DNA of 64,000 nucleotides, taken from positions 28,909,501-28,973,500 of the forward strand of contig NC_068560.1 in the NCBI RefSeq assembly GCF_022201045.2, read 5' to 3'. The notes under the pieces are model-generated. The model was given only the letters and a program-made list of their open reading frames with translations, had not been told where the DNA came from and made no database searches. Positions 33,660 through 45,100 of the stretch are shown here, piece by piece. The stretch is from Citrus sinensis (taxonomy: Eukaryota; Streptophyta; Magnoliopsida; Sapindales; Rutaceae). Numbering within the stretch: the first letter of the stretch is position 1; each line of letters opens with the position of its first letter. Both the position numbers and the translations under genes were made by a program.

Positions 33660-36635
33660 CGCTGTCTTTGGAGAGTTATAAATACTGTATCTAAAACCCT
33701 AATTGTGATTGATGGACGAAAATGTCCTCAAAATATTTCTTAATGACGAATGTGACCCAGACTCTTGCCCTCTCTTTTATGTACTTTGTTTCGCCTCCAA
33801 AAACCCTTATAAAAACCCCCCACTTTATTAAAAATATAAGATTTTAAGTTGAACTTATTTTTTATTAACAAGTATTTAGTGTTTAGTTAGTTTTAATAGT
33901 GATTTGCGATTAGAGTAATATTGATTTGTGATTGAAACTCTATTTAAGAACAGCTCCAATTTTTCTATTTCCTTTAAAAAAAGAGGAGAAGTAGAAGACT
34001 TTCTGATTTTTTGCGGGCCTTGAAGACATCTTTCAAACAATATTTTGATTTTAATTATTATTCTCAATGGGGTTTATAAGAAATTTCCAGGGGTGTTAAA
34101 AGGTCCATTCTTTTAGTTGGCCATTGGGCTTTTCTGTCCAATGATAAAAAGTTGGGCCCTCAACGTGGAGATGTGTTCAAGCCTCACAAGTGCAATGTGT
34201 CCTAACTATAATAGATTTCTCTTCGATAATTTATTTTGAATTATTAGTGGGTAAATTTTACAGTGCACTACAAATATATGTATTTAGAACTCTTAAATTA
34301 TAATGTATCTATAAATGTAACAATAACATTTAAAAAATTTATATTCTTATTTCAATCATGTTTTGATTTTGTTAATATGAAGTCCCATATATTGAGTGAG
34401 CAGTCTTCAAGCTACTTTTCTTGACTTGTTATCTCTTGTTAGATTCAAGAAATGCTCTCTCTCTCTCATTCCATAAGAATATGTCATAAGTCTTGAATTT
34501 TTCTAACTACACATAGTATATGCGTTTTGTTTCAAGCTGTTTAATGGATGAATACAATTGCAGTGGTAATAAACATAAATTGTGTGCTTAATGTTGAGTT
34601 ATGCGAAAGTTATGAAATAAGTTATAACTTTTATATACTTTTGTAATGAGTTAGGTTATAGTTGAATACAACTGAATATTTGAATCTAATTATATGTTTA
34701 TTTCTCTATTTAAATCGCTGAAAATAAATATTAAGTTATTTTTTTAACTTAAGAAATCTGAACACTAATATTTTTACATTTATACCCTTACAAATTATAA
34801 CAACTCAAAAAATATAAATAACATAGTACATTATCATCACATAAATGAGACAATAGAGTATGATAATATGAATAATATTCAATTGAATACAACTCTTTAA
34901 TATGGTAAATTAGTATATGTTAGTCAATTTTATTATTATAATTTTTTTAATGAGGGGTTGGGCGGGACCCCTACCTATAATATAAATCATAAAAACAAGA
35001 AATACATAGAGAGAAACATAAACCATTGCCTCCGAAAGCAAATGCAAGTACAAAGCATAGGAAGAAAAGTATAAAGTCTCCAAAAAGAACAACAAAAATC
35101 AACAATCGTACAACCTTACACGAGGAATTTCTCGTATATCTAAATGAAAAATACTAGTTAAGCTTGTAGAAAGATCCTGAGAACCCAAGAAATGTCGATT
35201 AACCCGATGAATGCAGGCTCAATTGACCAAAAAATCAGCCACAAAAGTAGTCTCATGAAGTAGATGCCTAATAAAAAACAAATAACCCTTAAATAATATC
35301 TATTTGCTGAGTAGATGCTGTAAATAATTGCAAATGTTATTATATATATTTATTATTAGAAAAATATCGCACAAATTTTTATTTTGAAGCATAATTTTGA
35401 GTGAGACTTACTTGGTGTAAGTGGAAGGTCAATAGCAATTAAGATACTCTTCCACAATAATTTAAAAATGGTATACTTATATGCTCAAAATGATGCTCAA
35501 TTAAGTAAGAAATTATTATTCAAAGTACATCCATGGAGTTAGAAAAATGAAAGGACAATGCATTTGTCCAACGTGAAAAAGAAATTTAAGTACAGAAGAT
35601 TTGTATATAATTGCTCATGTGTAAATGGATAAAAATATAAACATAAAGGCTTTCTTTTACGCATTCCACATATATAAATGTTGCCCAAATCATGATAAGT
35701 CTGCCTTAGCCATGTTTTTTCAGTAATTCAGCTTTGGTAGGAATGACAATGGGGTAGGGTAGGGGTGCGAAGACCTAGTGACCTACCATATTCCCTATCT
35801 CATTAAAAATTTCACCTTCATTCCTCAATAACTTTTGTAGGGTGGGGATAAAGAATCTCCATGTGGGAAAATCATTCTCCTATCCGCACCTCATTCCCCA
35901 TTTACTTATTTTATAGTAGGTATAGATAAATGATTTCAGTAAATTAAAAAATAGAGGCTTGAATAAAATTATTATCATATTATAAAATATTTAAATTATT
36001 TAAAAAATTCTCATTTCCCATTTACTTATTTTATAGTAGGAACGGATAAATGATTTTAGTAAATTAAAAAATAGAGGCTTGAATAAAATTATTATCATAT
36101 TATAAAATATTTAAATTATTTAAAAAAAACTCCAAAAGGTTGGTTTCAATATCAAGAAATAATATCAAAACAAAAAAAAATGTTTAAAGAGACCAGCACA
36201 TTGGGAAAAAAAAGAAAACATAACAATATTTTAAGGTTGAATAAGAATTATAATGTAGTGTTTTCTTTTAGTTATAATATATTTATATTAGGTAAAAATA
36301 AAAAGAAAAATTATTAAATAAAATTGTAATTGATAAAACAAAAATTGTTGAACAAAAATTAAAAAATATAATATATAATGAGGATTGGGGTAAGTGTGGG
36401 GTACAAAATAAAACCTCACTCTATAAAGAATTTAGAGATTATTTTTCTCTCTTTCTCACCTCGTTCTCTAAAAATTATTCAAAATTTGCCCCATTTAGAG
36501 TGGAACCTTATGAGACCTAAATTTAGGAAGATTCTTGTTATCCCTAAACTTTGCTATTCAGTTTTATTTTGATGATTATTGTACTTATAGAGTTACAGTA
36601 TTGTTTGTTTCTAACATTTACAAGTATATAATCAT
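33660..36635. other. RPS21 upstream region and gene-free flank of the MULE
   Basis: The RPS21 promoter lies at the left (around 33660-33800). The rest is AT-rich and non-coding. About 34920-35300 has the uneven, stop-rich look of an old retroelement fragment, but I could not assign it. A 120-bp tandem duplication is at 35891-36130. Confidence 0.4.
35891..36130. repeat. 120-bp direct tandem duplication
   Basis: Two adjacent copies (35891-36010 and 36011-36130) share almost all bases, including CATTTACTTATTTTATAGT and TAAAAAATAGAGGCTTGAA. The few differences indicate a fairly recent duplication. No coding content. Confidence 0.8.
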
Positions 36636-36644
36636 TCACTTTGA

Positions 36645-36762
36645 GGGAAATTTACAAAACAAGCCAAAAAAAGAAGGCATTTTTCAACTTTAACCCCTCA
36701 AATTTTTTTCTTTCAACATTAGCCAAATCACCACATTTTGGACGAAATTACCCTCCTCATTC
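36645..36762 (+). repeat. Left terminal inverted repeat of the MULE
   Basis: Pairs with the right end at 41555-41672. Shared blocks include GGGAAATTTACAAAA, GGCATTTTTCAACTTTAACC and CCTCAAA. The match fades after ATTACCCTC. Confidence 0.85.
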
Positions 36763-36944
36763 TCACGTTTCCCTCAAGCAAATTCCTTCCCCTCTCACCA
36801 AAATCTCATCACCGGAAGTTCTATAGATTGTCGGCGGCAGCGTACATCGGCAGCGGAGGAAGTTGTTGGCACTTGAAAGAAGCTAAATCACGTTGAAAAT
36901 CTTCGGAGATCTCCAAAATCAAAGAAAAAAATTGAAAACCCTAG

Positions 36945-37692
36945 GTGAGTTGTTATTGCCGTTTTTCTTGTTGTTGTTGTTGCTGTTGTTGTTTGGGATG
37001 TTGTTGTTGTTTGGGTTGTTGTTGTTGTTTGGGATGTTGTTGTTGTTGGTGGTGTTTTAATGGCGGTGGTGGGTGAGATGCATGTGGGAAAGGGAAGAGA
37101 AGAGAAAGGGGGGAAGCCAACTCGCGCTGCGTCGCACGCGAGATGCGCGCGGCGTGCGCACCTCGCGCGCGCGAGATGGGCGTGCAGCGCGCATCTCGCG
37201 TGCGACATGCCCATCTCGCGCGCGCGAGGTGCGAACGCCGCGCGCGACATGCGCATGTCGCACGCAAGATGGGCGCGACACGCGCGCGACATGCGCATGT
37301 CGCACGCGAGATGCGCGCGGCACGCCAATCTCGCGCGCGCGAGGTGCGCACGCCGCGCGCGAGGTGCGCACGCCGCGCGCGAGATGCGCACGCCGCGCGC
37401 ATCTCGTGTGCGACAGGCGCTGCGTCGCACGCGAGATGCACACGTTGCACCCATCTCGCGCGAGCGCGTTTCGCTAGGCTCGCGCGAGGGAAGCCAAGCG
37501 CGCGCAAGTTGCGTGCAGGCAAGCAGCTTGCGCGCTTGGCTTCCCTCGCGCGAGCCTGTCGCACCAAGAGGCAGCATCTCTTGGTGCGACAGTTGGTGCC
37601 CGTCGCACCAAGAGGCAGTGCGCAGTGCTGCCTTAATTTTTTTTTCTTTTGTTCATAATTTTTTAATGTGTGATACTTTTAACTTGTACCAG
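36945..37692 (+). other. Inferred leader intron of the DUF1985 gene
   Basis: CCCTAG followed by GTGAGT at 36945 is a strong donor, and TTGTACCAG ending at 37692 is a good acceptor five bases before the ATG. The CpG-rich array at 37110-37625 lies wholly inside it. This is inferred from splice signals only. Confidence 0.5.
37110..37625. repeat. CpG-dense palindromic array (MULE left subterminal)
   Basis: About 500 bp with extreme CpG content inside AT-rich DNA. It is built from variants of the palindrome GCGACATGCGCATGTCGC (exact at 37244-37261 and 37286-37303) and of units such as CGCGCGAGATGCGC. It also contains GTGCGACAGGCGC (37408-37420), which differs by one base from the repeated GTGAGACAGGCGC of the other end. 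It closes with a 30-bp stem (arms 37477-37508 and 37527-37556, two-base bulge) and directly after it a perfect 14-bp stem (37557-37570 and 37578-37591). All six frames stay open for long stretches because TA-containing stops are rare; the Arg/Ala/His-rich frames are not believable genes. Confidence 0.85.
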
Positions 37693-37696
37693 ATAA

Positions 37697-38368
37697 ATGG
37701 GCAAATCAAAATTAGCATTGCATAACCCACCCGGACTGATTAAAGAACCGGGAATGATGAAGATACCTTATGTTGATCACTTCCCTGGGCGTATCACGAG
37801 TATGTGCAAATTAGATGTCGTTGTTAATGCCATCCGGGAAAAATTAACAAGGCAACAGTTGAAGCTATTCAAAGACGATATATTTGGGCATTTCTTATAG
37901 TGCCGGAGCTATCCGTTCAGTGGCGTGATTGTGCACAATATATTGCTTCGGCAAGTGTCACATGGCGATGGAAATGACAAAGATGAGTTATGGTTTCAAG
38001 TTGGCGACCATTTGATACGGCTATCGATTGAAGAGTGGTGCCTAGTAACGGGACTTTGCAATGGCGAAAAAGTATTCCTGACGAAGCATAAAACAAATCA
38101 TAGGTTACTTAATAAGTACTTTGGAGGCAGGATTCGCGATATAAATCTTGGCCAGTTCGAGGAAATATTTATGAACTTACGCTTCAAGACTATGAATGAC
38201 ACCGATGCGCTAAAAATTGCCATGTTTTACTTTGCTGATAGAGTGCTACACGGAAGAAAGGATCATTGTCAAATCAATTTCAATTTACTTAATGAGGTAG
38301 ATGACATAAATCATTTTCGAAGTATTCCGTGGGGTCGTTTGTCATGGGAAACAATATATAAAAGCTGA
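37697..38368 (+). pseudogene. DUF1985-domain gene of the MULE, interrupted and truncated
   Basis: The frame starts MGKSKLALHNPPGLIKEPG and continues with a DUF1985-type domain: LFKDDIFGHFL, then after an in-frame TAG (37898-37900) CRSYPFSG, LWFQVGDHLIRLSIEEWCL, VTGLCNGEKVFL, LLNKYFGGRIRDINL, DALKIAMFYFADRVLHG and IPWGRLSWETIYKS. Frame is kept across the stop. In plants DUF1985 is common at the N terminus of transposon-borne proteins with a C-terminal Ulp1-like cysteine protease. Here the sequence ends about 30 residues after the domain core, exactly where the transposase begins on the other strand, so any protease part is gone. Confidence 0.8.
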
Positions 38369-40664
38369 TCGAGTTGGAATACTCTACAGGAGCAAGTTCT
38401 TTCATGAATGTCAACTATCCCTTCCTTCATACCACCACCCAAAACATGAAATCGATGCTGAGACACTGGCCGAACGGTCATTCTTTCGGCCAAAATTCTC
38501 CTTTCGCATACTATCTCATCTGCCCACGTCGTTAGACGAGTGCTCATCGATTCAGCGACAATTTTCCTATCATAAAACCAATGCTGTAATGTTTTTCTAA
38601 AGTGATCAACAAGATGAGTAATAGGAAATTTTCGCGGTTCCCTCATTAAAGAATTCACGCTTTCTGCAATGTTGGTGGTAAGTATGTTGTATCTCCTACC
38701 TTCAAATTCGGACCTTGCCCAATTACACGTGCCCACATTATTCTCTAAGTAATCAGCCGCGGCCGAGTGGAGCATCCACAACCCTTCAAGTTGTCTTTTA
38801 AATTCTTCGTGTCCATATGCCTTTGCTGCATTAATAAAAGCTGGCTCGAATTGATCCCAAATAGCTTTGGACATCCTGAATTTAGACTTAATGTTGCCTT
38901 TGACATGGTAAAAACAAACTCCATGACTAGCAGTGTGAAATGCTTTTAAAACGGCTCGCTTGATGGCAGTGCATCGATCAGAGATAAATACTAACTCTGG
39001 CCTATCGCCAATCACTCCGTGTAACTTCGTCATAAACCATTCCCAAGCATCATTGTTTTCTGAATCCATGACCCCAATAGCTAACGGATACAGTTGATTA
39101 TTACCATCCAAACATGTTGCTACAAACATGTTGCTACAAACATGCTTCCACGATATAGCCCCTTCAAATGAGTGCCATCTACAGCGATCACAGGCCTTAT
39201 GTACTGTGTGAAGCCCTTAATGGAAGATCCAAGCGCAACAAAGTAGTATAAGAAATTATCATCTCCATCCCGCTGGAGGTGTGTCACTGTGCCCTCATTC
39301 GCTTTGGTCAAAACGTGAGAGTATTTGGGAAGTAAGTTGTATGACTCTGCAGGGTTCCCTCGTACTATTTCAAGACCGACTTCTTTAGCCCGATATGCTT
39401 GCTGATATGTTAACTGGACCCCATATTCTTGCTGCATGTCTGTTCTAATGTCATTCGGCGTGTATATCCGTTTATCCTGAATAAATTTATCCGCAATAAG
39501 ATGGCCAACAACCCGACTCCTAACTTGGCGGAGGCCACTAGGCAAAACCTCATTAGAGCACGTATGAACATTGTCAACTCTTCTCACTACCCAAGGAACA
39601 TTATGCTCATCCGAACCTCTTGTTGCGCGAAGACGCCAATTACATGATTCCGAAGAACAATGAGCCTCAAAGCGTGTCGTTGTGGACCGTGCAATCTTGA
39701 AATCAAACTTTTCCCGCAAGGCCACTTTGCGCAATTCCAGTATTAACTCATTCTTCTCAACGAACAACTTTCCCACACCAATGTCGGCAGAATTACAGCT
39801 TCTAACTAAGTCTGGAGCAACCAAGTTTGAAGGCAAAACTGGAGCAAGACTCACCAGGGGATCAACTGTTGTCCTCCTCCTCGAACGGGCCATCGGAGGA
39901 ATAGGTCGATTCTCTCTATTGTTAACAGGAATATCATACTGATGCTCATCCTCATTATTGATAGGAATATCGGAATGACCAGTGTCCATATCATCAACTT
40001 CAGTATTGGAGTTCATGCCTTGCACATTATCAGCTTCTGTGTTGTTGGTGTTATAACCAGGATCATCATAACTGCGGAACTCATTATTTTGAAATGGAGA
40101 GTAATGTTGCCCTAACGATGTCCCTAATGGTAACACATTATCTTCAACATCCGCTATCGTAATGCCATTATCATCAATAGTGTCATTGTTTTCGTTGACT
40201 GGTGAGTAATGTTGTTGGAACGACATTTGTTGTGGTAACACCTCTTCCTCAATATCAGGGACAGACTCGTTTGCTCTAAACGAACTTTTACTTTCCACAA
40301 GTGGCTCAGGATTTTCGGCCGAAACTCGAGGATGTGTGGTGACAAATATAGGGATGCATCCATAATTGACCACATCAGAGGCCATGTGCAGCACAACATT
40401 AACTATTTCATCATTAAATATATCCATAGGTAGTGAACATGCACGATACATTGTGTTACTAGATCTCAAAGTTTTCTTCATCGACAAACTATATTCAATA
40501 GGATTTATCTGTAAAACTTCATACACCCTTGCCATAAATTGCTCAAACGTACAATCTTTCCGAACTAAAAATGCTGTATTCTTCGTATTCACGTACTCCG
40601 TACGGCCATCTGCTAATGTCTCCCACCAACCGTCATAACATAATTGAAGTACAACGGAATCCAT
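38366..40664 (-). pseudogene. MuDR-type MULE transposase, frameshifted and truncated
   Basis: Read on the minus strand from MDSVVLQLCYDGWWETL (40664), it has an N-terminal region, a MuDR DNA-binding segment (VGKLFVEKNELILELRKVAL ... WRLRATRGSD), the catalytic MULE domain beginning IAVDGTHLKGLYRGSMF (first Asp) with LVFISDRCTAIKRAV (second Asp) and GVCFYHVKGNIKSKF, then TNIAESVNSLMRE, and the start of a SWIM zinc finger, CSCRVFQLDQL. A 14-bp direct duplication (39113-39126 and 39127-39140) breaks the frame at FVATCL. The SWIM finger is cut before its second metal pair at about 38366, where the DUF1985 gene from the other side also stops. An acceptor at 40671-40670 suggests a leader intron running from 41370 that contains the right array. 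Confidence 0.88.
39113..39140. repeat. 14-bp tandem duplication causing the transposase frameshift
   Basis: CATGTTGCTACAAA occurs twice head to tail. The net +14 changes the frame of the transposase within the FVATCL codons; a single copy would keep one continuous frame across this point. Confidence 0.9.
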
Positions 40665-40867
40665 TAAACCTAAAAAAAAAAACAAAAGAGATAAGATTTC
40701 ACGCTACAAAACCTAGTAAAAATGAATATGCAGTACATTTATGTGGATGATATGAAGTATACAATTTTTGATTTACTTCGTCTCATCGTAAGCTTCGAAA
40801 TGATATATTATACGCCTAAAACGGACACATGTAGCCCAAGTTATTACTTTCGGAAAATAACTTAAAT

Positions 40868-41165
40868 TTAGTGAGACAGGCATTGGGACAGGTGCCTGTC
40901 TCACATAAAACCAGCAAATTTATGTGAGACAGGCGCCTGTCCCACTTGCCTGTCTCACATAAAACCAGTGGTAACAAGTGAGACAGGCGCATGTCCCACT
41001 TGCCTGTCTCACATAAAACCAGTGGTAACAAGTGAGACAGGCGCCTGTCTCACACGCCTATCCCACTTGCCTGTCGCACATATTTTGGTGAGACAGGCAA
41101 GTGAGACAGGTGCCTGTCTCACATAAAACCAGTAGATTTATGTGAGACAGGTGCCTGTCTCACTT
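40868..41165. repeat. Palindromic tandem array (MULE right subterminal)
   Basis: A repeat with a period of about 54 bp, built on GTGAGACAGGCGC and its inverse GCCTGTCTCAC, linked by ATAAAACCAGTGGTAAC. GTGAGACAGGCGC occurs exactly at 40924-40936, 40978-40990 and 41032-41044. A 22-bp perfect palindrome centred on GGCGCC is at 41032-41053. It lies between the transposase start and the right inverted repeat, inside the inferred transposase leader intron. Confidence 0.88.
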
Positions 41166-41554
41166 GTTCTGGGCTTCTGTTTTACTCGATTTTTCAGGGG
41201 TTTCAATGATTGATTTTCATTTCTCAACTCAAACTAACTACTTTAACAAGTCACATTGTTTTGTTAATGAAAAATAACAACATTTGCAATAAAAACTCAC
41301 ATCAATTTCGAACTCAAATGATAAAATCAATAGATTAAAAGTTTAGGTTATGGTAAGAGTATAAACTAACCTTAAGAAGCTTTCCAATTGATAATTATAT
41401 CTTCAATTATGTAATACTTGTTTGATGAAATTTGCTAATTTATTGAGAGTAATGGAGTTTGTTGAGTGATGAAATTTGTTAAGTTGAAAAGGGAAAAGTG
41501 GTGGAAGTGCTGGAATTGATAAGGGAAAGTGGCATGCCTTTGTAAATTTGATGA

Positions 41555-41672
41555 AAATGATGAGGGTAATGTAGTCCAAAAATAGGGTGTTTGGCTAGTT
41601 ATGATAGAAAAAAGTTTGAGGGGTTAAAGTTGAAAAATGCCTAATTTTTTTGGCTATTTTTGTAAATTTCCC
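41555..41672 (-). repeat. Right terminal inverted repeat of the MULE
   Basis: Reversed, it reads GGGAAATTTACAAAAATAG and matches the left end with scattered substitutions. Confidence 0.85.
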
Positions 41673-41681
41673 TCACTTTGA

Positions 41682-42123
41682 TTGTTCTATTTCATCTCTT
41701 TTAACAAATTCTCATTAAAGACAAAAGGATCTAATAATGAAATTCTTTAGCTGGACAAGAATTTATAAATTATTTATCATTAAACTTATCTTCAAGACAA
41801 CAACTCGTTTAATAATAATTGAAACATAAAATATTAATTTTTATAAATATCATTAAACGTAATTCTCATGTCAAATAATAGCCATAGTTGTAATTTTCCT
41901 TTAAAAAAAAAAAATGTGTATATTTTTTCTCCTTGAAGCCATGAAAATATCTGGACCTTTCAAAGAAGAGAATGACCTTTTGATAGTGGGTCCCCTGCTC
42001 GTCATCGACGGCTAGTAATAAACCTATTGCGACAAAATCATCTTCCCTTCCCGCCAACACCAATTATGTTTCACTGAAAAGAACGAGCGCGAGAGCGTGG
42101 GGACTGAGGGGCCAAACGGAACG
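41682..42123. other. RAD9 upstream region
   Basis: About 440 bp between the MULE target duplication and the RAD9 start. AT-rich on the left, mixed composition from about 41990. No clear TATA box; housekeeping-type initiation is possible. The MULE insertion therefore lies in the RAD9 promoter region. Confidence 0.4.
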
Positions 42124-45100
42124 ATGGAGTTCGCTGTGAGCGGGAATGCTCTCAAGACCTTTGCCAGGTGCCTCGCGTGCCTCTCACGTATAGGCAACGA
42201 GCTTGTCATTCAAGGTTCTTCTCATCAGGTAACCGCTCTCTCAGTCAGTTAATTCCCTTATTGCAATTTTTCTAATTTCACGATAACACTCAATAACCTG
42301 ATTTAATTTGCTTTTTCATTCTAAATTTTTCTGGATTTTAAGCACATTGTATATAAATCTTGTTTAATTTAGTCAGTGATTATGCTTAGATATTGTAATT
42401 GTATATATCTACTGATAATACTTAGGGTTTTGTGTTCATATTATGGTTTTGGATAGCATAAACCGGTTATTTGGAATAATTCAAAATATTAGTGGAGATA
42501 AAGTGAAAATTCTGTGAATGAAGCTATCATGACTAGGCTCTGTTTGATTGCTGGGAAATTGAAGTAAAACAACAGAATTTGAAGTTATGTTGTTTGTAAT
42601 TTTGCTTATTCTGCTCTCTGAAGAACTTAATCTTACTTAATTAAGATGAAATTTTGTATTGTATCTGAATTAAGTTGATTTTATTGTTTTTTTTTTCCTT
42701 GTGTTTTGCAGCTTGCTTTCCACACTCTCAATTCTTCGCGGTCTGCTTATCAGTCTATTACATTTATGCCCAATTTCTTTGACGTCTATACAGTGTCTGG
42801 AGCGCAAGTCCAATGTAGTGTGCTGTTAAAGGTGTGTGATATTGTATTTTGATTTTATGTAGAATCATTTGGATTTTTCAATATTTAGCATCTGTCTTGA
42901 TTTAGCCATTTAGGCTGTTTGTGCGGTTCTTAGGACACCTACTGCAAGCATTGATAATCTGACTGTGCAATTGCCTAATTCTGATGCACCAAAAGTTCAA
43001 TGGACTCTGAAATGCTATAATGGTAAGGTGTTTTTACATCATGTTTATTTCTTATCTTATTTATTGTTTCCTACTTGACATACTACTGTGTTGATTCTTC
43101 TGAGAAGTCGGAGATGTAGACCTATATATTGGAAGAATAAAGTACAGGGATGGGTAATTTCTGTGTAGGGTGATTGTTTATGCTGTATCTGCTGAAATAT
43201 GGTTAACAACTGAGTGCAGAAAGTCTGATTTGTACCATGGTAGTATTAAATTTCTGGTTGCATAATGACTTTAAATCACTCCATGGTGCTTAACATAGTA
43301 GATTTACAGTGGAGTAAAATCATATAAGAACTCGTCCATGGCAGGGAAAGCTATCAGTGACAATGTTGATATCATACATAAACCGTGATATTATGTTCTT
43401 GAGATTTTGGATTGTAGCTTGTTGAACTAGAGATAGATTTGAGGCTGCAAGCATACCTCTATTGATCATGGTATGACTATTTGCCAAAACCGCCTCTTAC
43501 ATCATTCATGATCGGCATATAACACTGCAAAGGCAGTGACACCTTTAACCCAGTTTAATTTTTCTAATGGTAATTGATGCAGCACAATCAGATTCAAAGA
43601 TAATATTGATTTGAAATTTGAGCGCACTACTCTAATCCTCTAGTTCTGTGATGAATTACTCTGTCACATTTCATAAGGAGGCAATGCACAATGCAGATGT
43701 TCTTTTTCAATAATCGTCCTATGCTTTATAATATTGAGTTTCTCTTTAACAAATTTTTAATCTATCTTGTCTAGGTATGAAGAAAGCCTATTGGATTACT
43801 TGTAATGTTGAACCTGACATACAGCATCTATCCCTTGATAGAAGAAGATTCCCAAGTAACTTTGTAGTGAGGCCTCGCGATCTCAACAGATTGCTTTCTA
43901 ATTTTCAATCATCCCTACAGGAGATTACTGTCATTGCAACAGAGCCCACTTCCTTGCCTTCTGATGCTGCAAGTGAAATTGGAGGAAAAGCTGTTGAACT
44001 GAGAAGTTACATAGATCCAACCAAAGGTAAGGATTTGTTGATATTCCTGACATTATACCAACAGGAGATTTTATCGTCCATTTTTCATCTGCAGATAATG
44101 ACTCTACTCTGCACACTCAACTGTGGATAGATCCAACAGAGGAGTTTGTGCAGTATACTCACTCTGGAGATCCTGTAGATGTGACATTTGGTGTGAAGGA
44201 ATTGAAGGTACGGTAACTCATACACTGGGACAATATTGTTCTGATACTTAATTGTGTACCTCATACAATCAATTTACAAATCTTAAACCATCTAGTGAGC
44301 TTCGTTACCATTTCGATACAATATTAATCCAGCTAATTACTCTTACTATGGCTGATGCAACTTACTTAGTGGAGAATCTGGATGCGCATTCAGTTCTTTC
44401 TCACTTGTTGTTTTGGTTTGGGGTAAATTTCAGGCTTTTCTTTCTTTTTGTGAGGGATGTGAAGTTGACATACACCTATTCTTTGACAAAGCCGGCGAGT
44501 AAGATGGTTTCACTCCTATAAAATTTATTAGTTTTCTATGGTTTTAGTTCTTTTTCTCCTTCCAAAGATATGGATTTAATATATGTAGACTGACCATGAA
44601 AAATTATTACTTCTATTCACCAATGCAATAATCAAGTATCATAAACTGTCTTGCTTACTATTATGCCCTTTATATGCAAGAATTGCACTTTCTAAAATGT
44701 GAATTCAATTTGCAAAATCATATTTGGTGAAACAGGCCAATATTAATGGCACCAAAGTTCGGACTAGATGATGGTTCAGGTTCGAATTTCGATGCTACAC
44801 TTGTACTTGCAACCATGCTGGTATCACAGCTTCAATTAGCCAATTCCTCAGAACATCAGCAAGCGGCTGCCTCAATACCTGGTCAGAATGGTAACCGGAC
44901 AGAGTCCCAAGCACAAAAGGAGAGACGCAGAATGAATGTCTCTGAGCACCCATCTGATCATACCAGAGTTTGGTCTGAACTTTCAGGTAGTTATACAACT
45001 GTTTTCTAATGGTGACAGTGTGTTGTGAAACCAATATTTTATATGTTTCAATTTTATGCAGGAAGTGCAGTAAGGAGTGGTAGTGGTGCAGAAGAAAGGC

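Follow-up and report, generated by a model that had tools for sequence, protein, structure and literature searches.

The 64,000-nucleotide stretch of the Citrus sinensis genome described here, hereafter the window, carries a transposon of 5028 bp at 36645-41672, which is flanked on both sides by the 9-bp target-site duplication (TSD) TCACTTTGA and opens with the letters GGGAAATTTACA. Its terminal inverted repeats (TIRs), found as the pair 36633-36765 / 41552-41684, are 83% alike over 133 nt, the TSD included, and between them lie two convergent gene remnants, namely a DUF1985 gene on the plus strand, from 37697, and a mudrA-type transposase gene on the minus strand, from 40664. The domains recognized are PF10551, PF00872, and PF03108 in the transposase, and PF09331 (DUF1985) in the other gene. 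With these transposase domains, the 9-bp duplication, and the TIRs, the element is a Mutator-like transposon (Mutator-like element, MULE), and more precisely an internally deleted member of a family of about 8.1 kb: relative to the full-length sister L069 (8.1 kb), about 3.1 kb are lost at 38362-38365, which leaves the window copy without the ULP1 exons and the C-terminus of the transposase. The element also contains two dense arrays of short repeats, one toward each end, and these arrays are the subject of this report.

One half-site in two arrays

The left and right arrays have one half-site in common, GTGNGACAGG. An earlier note on this DNA, the original prediction, held that both contain a palindrome of the type GACA-N-GCGC-N-TGTC, multiplied near both ends of the element, and this is borne out: all the sequences that it quoted are present. 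The core GACANGCGCNTGTC occurs in the left array at 37246 and 37288, both times as GACATGCGCATGTC, and in the right array at 40928, 40982, and 41036, with a TG-centre form also at 40887, 41105, and 41146; none was found in the rest of the 64-kb window. These two left and six right cores compare with about 0.001 expected from 2000 dinucleotide shuffles of each array, and shuffles of the same kind expect 0.015 and 0.022 copies of the half-site GTGNGACA[GT]G, which is present 5 times on the left and 16 times on the right. More broadly, 25 of the 33 GTGNGAC sites of the window are inside the 5-kb element, all 25 within the two arrays, and neither TIR of this copy holds a half-site.

The arrays also share the 12-mer TGTGCGACAGGC. 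Taken on its own, this word is weaker evidence, near 1 in 300: the longest word in common with the right array was 11 letters in one set of 300 left-array shuffles, but a separate set of 300 included at least one shuffle with common 12-mers (up to 4). The left array has no surplus of palindromes in general (10 bp and longer), with 8 observed and a shuffle mean of 5.7. The conserved unit is a half-site of about 10 bp rather than the strict palindrome.

The motif in sister copies and related families

Motifs and relatives were searched for in the whole genome (299.7 Mb, 11 contigs). For the left end of the element (301 bp), 40 matches were scored among 436 candidates; the right end, of 293 bp, gave 42 matches, 40 of its 573 candidates being scored. 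Comparisons within the element's own family, here called family A, use 30 left and 30 right loci. When the flanks of these loci were compared, 26 exact 9-bp matches appeared, plus 2 pairs with one mismatch, and 25 of the exact matches are taken as true TSD pairs, since one is a chance match of poly-T flanks. The half-site is found in both arrays of family A. GTGCGAC is present in 30 of 30 left arrays, with 302 copies where shuffles give 10.8, and the strict palindrome is present in all 30 right arrays (1-8 each) and in 23 of the 30 left arrays (0-4 each). The fourth base of the half-site is C in 302 of 307 left sites, and A, G, or C in 383, 98, and 29, respectively, of 510 right sites. The commonest gap between convergent half-sites is 8 bp in the right arrays and 9, then 11 bp in the left ones, and same-strand repeats are present as well. 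Array length varies largely in 54-bp steps on the right, and the GC-rich left arrays span 235-1330 bp.

The original prediction also placed each array inside a leader intron of the gene nearest it, at 36945-37692 and 41370-40670. These predicted introns fit the GT..AG rule exactly, and their signals are mostly kept in the sister copies: on the left, the donor in 28/30 and the acceptor in 20/30 (within the 1.8 kb examined), and on the right, the donor in 30/30 and the acceptor in 27/30. Predicted intron length changes with array length, and the splice signals stay constant. At the start of the left intron, ahead of the array, are GTT-rich imperfect 18/36-bp repeats (36949-37056), and a G/T-rich stretch was seen by eye at the matching place of the sister element L099, described below. 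In one family-A locus, L064 (C7:7880314-7883607), the right array appears by eye to run directly into DUF1985-gene sequence, as in an internally rearranged element.

Genome-wide, the loose core GACANGYGCNTGTC has 501 forward and 489 reverse matches, compared with 5 and 6 for a reversed control; the 22-mer GTGNGACAKGYRCMTGTCNCAC has 532 sites, and 22 are found for the palindrome of the left type, GTGCGACATGCGCATGTCGCAC, when one mismatch is allowed, the control giving 0 in both cases. The 22-mer clusters examined are the 18 listed (50 sites), which come from contig C1 and the first 5.7 Mb of C2, and all of them lie in related MULEs, that is, 2 family-A loci and 16 elements with related ends and/or bodies. 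Five of these 16 have perfect 9-bp duplications (L004, L070, L071, L077, and L084). A 30-32-bp unit characterizes L004, L072, L073, L077, and L086, plus L084, which has three half-sites, and the foldback-like relatives are L070 (739-nt arms, 99%), the similar L071, and L074, which is resembled by L075 from another loose-core cluster. Half-sites occur in both halves of L070, L071, L074, and L075, and in one half only of L004 (16/0), L077 (20/0), and L084 (3/0). The foldback-like L070 (C2:2139501-2141900) and L071 (C2:3537901-3540400), each with a perfect duplication and with motif copies in its two halves, are possibly sources of small RNAs. Four further loose-core loci (L001, L002, L003, and L076) are not arrays and were set aside as chance matches.

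Across families, the word itself is what is retained. Only four 7-mers, TGCGACA, GTGCGAC, GCGACAG, and CGACAGG, are present in all ten array representatives, and all four are words of GTGCGACAGG; no spacer word is found in all ten, and in 300 shuffled sets the best-shared 7-mer reached 4-6 of 10 families in 299 sets and 8 in one. The result is similar when the motif plays no part in choosing the arrays, GC content being used for left arrays and repeat density for the rest: six sets were compared, and the 7-mers common to all of them are just these four words and GACAGGT. By repeat density, the picks for L074 and L075 were foldback arms without half-sites.

The transposases of a sister family are 75-79% identical in protein to those of family A, and upstream of them GTGNGACA half-sites are present in 11 of 12 copies, four of which have only 2-3. 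The transposase-upstream region of L089 has none, and its transposase frame is nearly open (one stop). The sister element at C5:831807 has, on its DUF1985 side (L099), a TIR-like start, a donor that was read by eye (CCTAG/GTTAGT), and an array rich in CpG that contains GTGCGACAGGCGCCTGTCGCAC; the 22-mer is found at both ends of this element, the transposase side being L101. Used as a query, the L099 array matches both sides of at least 5 of 25 sister elements and one or more sides of at least 14 of 25, a tally made over 62 of 102 rows with 40 of 215 candidates scored. Counting L101 and the half-sites in L090 and L094, at least 8 of the 25 have motif arrays on both sides, which agrees with the predicted multiplication of one palindromic motif near both ends. 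The array of L087 (C6:19788901-19790900) repeats in a step of 83 bp and contains both GTGCGACAGGTTCCCGTCGCAC and GTGCGACTGCCTTTCTGTCGCAC, the start of the half-site being kept and the palindrome centre changed. Viral contigs gave 0 matches to the pattern GTGNGACAGGYRCCTGTCNCAC, and 6 pattern matches to the transposase, none confirmed.

Candidate readers of the arrays

The intact organization of the family can be read from L069. Its transposase is an open frame of 886 amino acids with DBD_Tnp_Mut, MULE, Transposase_mut, and SWIM domains, and thus carries the DNA-binding domain PF03108, and the convergent second gene has a DUF1985 domain (E 5.8e-20) and, on two further exons, Peptidase_C48 (ULP1, E 2.2e-10 and 9.3e-6), a trait of KAONASHI and other ULP1-MULEs that is deleted in the window copy. 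Compared with the PDB, the DUF1985 exon matches VANC21 (9lnj/9lnk, E 4.9e-5), the sole match at E up to 1, and the transposase sequence has no match at E up to 1. An AlphaFold model of a 155-residue DUF1985 piece, made with no alignment, had a pLDDT (predicted local distance difference test) of 43 and was not used. When 150 of 332 DUF1985 candidates were scored, with seven tandem matches left out, 22 of 26 family-A transposases and 21 of 25 in the sister family had a convergent DUF1985 match no more than 16.5 kb away, and in 42 of these 43 cases the distance is within 3.3 kb; L089 has neither an array nor a nearby DUF1985 match. Of the family-A transposase matches, 13/26 are without a stop, one of them spanning residues 1-770 only. 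Separately, seven DUF1985 matches of identical score are spaced exactly 1607 bp apart at C4:19391872-19401900, a tandem array of gene fragments that is perhaps a satellite derived from a MULE accessory gene.

This organization resembles that of VANDAL21 and its protein VANC21 from Arabidopsis, a sequence-specific anti-silencing system (PMC5735166, PMC10398659, chain 9lnj). Both elements are MULEs with a second gene for a VANC21-related DUF1985 protein; in both, dense tandem arrays of a short motif lie within introns of that gene (predicted ones in Citrus) and ahead of the transposase, and units are gained and lost between copies. VANC21, one of the VANC proteins that carry DUF1985, binds a short motif arrayed densely as tandem repeats, which are found upstream of VANA21 and, for VANC21 and VANB21, inside introns; these arrays have undergone extensive repeat gain and loss (PMC5735166). 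The layout itself is therefore already known from VANDAL21, and the original prediction erred in stating that it had no description. The motifs differ (GTGNGACAGG in Citrus, YAGTATTAY for VANC21), and the ULP1 protease exons present in the Citrus family are a further difference.

Transposase and Peptidase_C48/DUF1985 genes are combined in KAONASHI (KIU) of Arabidopsis and in the ULP1-MULEs of melon, rice, and grapevine as well, but the excerpts seen of the review covering them describe no palindromic arrays, and KIU is called non-TIR there (PMC13317346). The same review states that, by way of motifs, VANC elements with ULP1 likewise cause hypomethylation of their kin (PMC13317346). CitMule is likewise a MULE from Citrus, but it is FAR1-type, without long TIRs or, in the parts of its description consulted, any such arrays (PMC4334395), and it is not the window element. 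Literature searches on DUF1985 together with MULE transposons found nothing, and those on Citrus MULE, VANDAL, VANC, DUF1985, or Ulp1 returned no paper recognized, by title and start of abstract, as dealing with the MULE family of the window; among the matches listed for the half-site 10-mers, none was a plant-transposon paper by title, and they look like chance. As far as these searches show, what is new is the palindromic motif, the range of families that share it, and its occurrence together with a ULP1 MULE that has TIRs.

We consider that the arrays may be cis targets of the element's own VANC-type DUF1985-ULP1 protein, i.e., parts of a predicted sequence-specific anti-silencing system, and we rate the chances of this as about even. 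The protein would bind GTGNGACAGG half-sites, often in inverted pairs (with a gap of mostly 8-9 bp, 9 or 11 bp on the left), and the dense arrays in both leader introns would recruit it beside both promoters, where it would remove or block silent chromatin, so that the transposase and the DUF1985-ULP1 protein stay expressed. Short and foldback relatives would benefit in trans and keep their arrays for that reason. Tandem duplication would create and renew the arrays, and the proposed origin would thereby account for the fast change of copy number and spacers around a stable word. The CpG content of the left arrays fits what unmethylated DNA would show: the observed/expected ratio is 1.32-1.64 in 30/30 copies, as opposed to 0.57 outside the element, and the 302 copies of GTGCGAC compare with 8 of its two deaminated forms.

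Several observations weigh against this reading. Co-occurrence cannot tell which of the two proteins binds, because the transposase and the DUF1985 gene travel together, and in L087 an open transposase frame is accompanied by an array, with no DUF1985 match nearby among the candidates scored. Many half-sites here are in convergent pairs, forming 22-23-bp palindromes, whereas VANC21 motifs lie in one orientation (PMC5735166), a trait of the VANC21 arrays that is not known to define all VANCs. The window element has real TIRs, whereas VANDALs are described with absent or degenerate TIRs, although some relatives have them. The VANC systems of the papers examined are those of Arabidopsis, with fast-changing motifs, and VANC targets are said to diverge rapidly; the Citrus word is nevertheless kept over families with transposases as different as those above. 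The core is also less regular than the original prediction anticipated. It is absent at one end in part of the material, the strict palindrome being missing from 7 of the 30 left arrays and the motif one-sided in L004, L077, and L084. Moreover, the expectation that it would vary less than its neighbours fails in young family-A right arrays, in which variability is 1.9% for the 22-mer, 1.5% for the spacer, 1.3% for the flank, and 0.56% for other half-sites (24/30 arrays; L052, L059, L064, L065, L067, and L068 were left out for deletions or divergence). Within-family conservation was accordingly rejected as support, and the notion of a core kept while its flanks vary holds across families, not among young copies. 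Finally, the CpG argument fits one array only. CpG is scarce on the right, where the ratio is 0.27 in the array of the window copy and averages 0.49 over a 400-bp region of the 30 copies, and on the left a recent growth in tandem would account for the CpG content too.

An alternative, the first suggestion of the original prediction, is that the transposase of the element itself binds to the arrays as subterminal sites, where it would act as a dimer on the palindrome and bring the ends together. Subterminal repeats help to join the ends in other transposons, e.g., Ac/Ds and En/Spm. The arrays are indeed subterminal, at both ends in family A and in the two-sided sister elements, and they persist in the short (0.9-1.9 kb) elements with perfect duplications; in addition, the transposase has a DNA-binding domain, and L087 combines a transposase with an array. 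Nevertheless, family-A arrays start about 0.4-0.5 kb inside the ends, within predicted introns; their length varies several-fold among perfect-duplication copies (e.g., L010 and L020); and the nearly open frame of L089 has no half-site upstream. Above all, the TIRs of the window copy lack the motif and three short elements are one-sided, and since L004, L077, and L084 have perfect duplications, arrays at both ends are not required for movement. For these last two reasons the transposase was demoted from sole reading to rival, which we regard as unlikely, and the VANC-type target is preferred; of the binders that the original prediction had in mind, a transposase or another dimeric factor, the former stays one candidate and the VANC21-related DUF1985-ULP1 protein is the better one.

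It is less probable again that no protein reads the arrays, which would then be foldback DNA growing by slippage and unequal exchange, with intron RNA hairpins that feed small RNAs or act as structure. This possibility was raised because both arrays would give very stable RNA hairpins (predicted folding -202.8 kcal/mol, z -20.7 on the right; -409.1, z -19.2 on the left), and it is in keeping with the variability of the 22-mer among young copies, no lower than that of the spacers, and with the composition-matching count of palindromes in the left array. Yet what families retain is the half-site sequence and not just pairing, as the four overlapping 7-mers and the lack of any such spacer word indicate, and 26 of 152 right-array 22-mers have fourth bases (A-C) unable to pair in the transcript. 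The last alternative, a captured host transcription factor site driving both genes from enhancer arrays in the leader introns, would suit the position of the arrays just downstream of both presumed transcription starts and the cross-family conservation of the motif, as a slowly evolving host binder would need, but we find it the most doubtful of all, given the concentration of the half-site in 5 kb of the 64 kb and the absence of any host promoter set with the palindrome, all 18 listed clusters being related MULEs.

Returning to the DUF1985-ULP1 protein, a bolder form of the VANC-type reading can be put forward as a speculation, more doubtful than the reading itself. One 22-bp inverted GTGNGACAGG pair would be a conserved password, read by the SUMO-protease-like DUF1985-ULP1 proteins of a whole guild of MULE families, in which autonomous, one-sided short, and foldback elements share one anti-silencing licence; a dimer would sit on the inverted half-sites, a protease would have been added to VANC, and the high CpG density of the left arrays would show that they have long been shielded from methylation. 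The family bears on the wider question of how transposons evade silencing while the rest of the genome stays closed. It makes direct tests possible, with its open-frame copies, a precise motif that has hardly any background, and a candidate binder to which a solved protein is related. Whether the palindrome is bound as a dimer by a ULP1-bearing VANC relative, and whether several MULE families are freed at once, thus become testable.

Sasaki et al. reportedly found in 2022 that eudicot VANC proteins gained and lost DUF1985, DUF287, and Ulp1, and that VANC target motifs are set by sequence, density, and helical spacing. In the Citrus arrays, a 10.5-bp phase reached p<0.01 in a jitter test in 11 of 15, to which no weight is given as tandem units are not independent; it was not reached by the two arrays of the window, L074, and L086.

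Coordinates and neighbouring features

The features of the window copy are collected in Table 1.

Table 1. Features of the MULE copy, in window coordinates (a slash marks a predicted splice site)
Feature	Position	Strand	Basis
Left TSD, 9 bp, TCACTTTGA	36636..36644	.	Read from sequence; pair matched in flank comparison
Whole MULE copy, 5028 bp, internally deleted vs 8.1-kb sister L069	36645..41672	.	
Left TIR	36645..36765	+	Inverted-repeat pair 36633-36765 / 41552-41684
Predicted leader intron, DUF1985 gene: AG/GTGAGT ... TACCAG/, ATG at 37697	36945..37692	+	Splice signals in sequence, kept in sister copies
Left array, CpG-dense (CpG observed/expected 1.55), 9 GTGNGAC half-sites	37110..37630	+	
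Palindrome core GACATGCGCATGTC, first	37246..37259	.	
Palindrome core GACATGCGCATGTC, second	37288..37301	.	
12-mer TGTGCGACAGGC, common to right array (41069-41080, minus)	37407..37418	+	
DUF1985 gene, truncated; in-frame stop 37898-37900; ULP1 exons gone through internal deletion	37697..38368	+	
Internal-deletion junction, ~3.1 kb vs L069; two matches overlap by 4 bp	38362..38365	.	
mudrA-type transposase remnant (DBD_Tnp_Mut, MULE domain); C-terminus deleted; frame broken at 14-bp tandem repeat	38362..40664	-	
14-bp tandem repeat, 2.6 copies, in transposase coding region at frame change	39109..39144	.	
Predicted leader intron, transposase gene: AAG/GTTAGT ... TTTTAG/GTTTAATGG	40670..41370	-	Splice signals in sequence, kept in sister copies
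Right array: 54-bp tandem unit, 16 GTGNGAC half-sites, six palindrome cores	40870..41166	-	
Perfect 22-bp palindrome GTGAGACAGGCGCCTGTCTCAC; other 22-mer sites start at 40924, 40978, 41101, 41142	41032..41053	.	
Right TIR	41552..41672	-	Same inverted-repeat pair as left TIR
Right TSD, 9 bp, TCACTTTGA	41673..41681	.	Sequence and flank comparison

About 0.5 kb to the left of the MULE, at 35890-36127, there is a 120-bp tandem duplication with 95% matches. On the other side, the element ends about 440 bp before an ATG that was read by eye at 42124 and is taken as the start of a gene with an exon at 43750-44130 encoding a Rad9 domain (PF04139, E 5.3e-15), and the MULE may thus be a promoter insertion.

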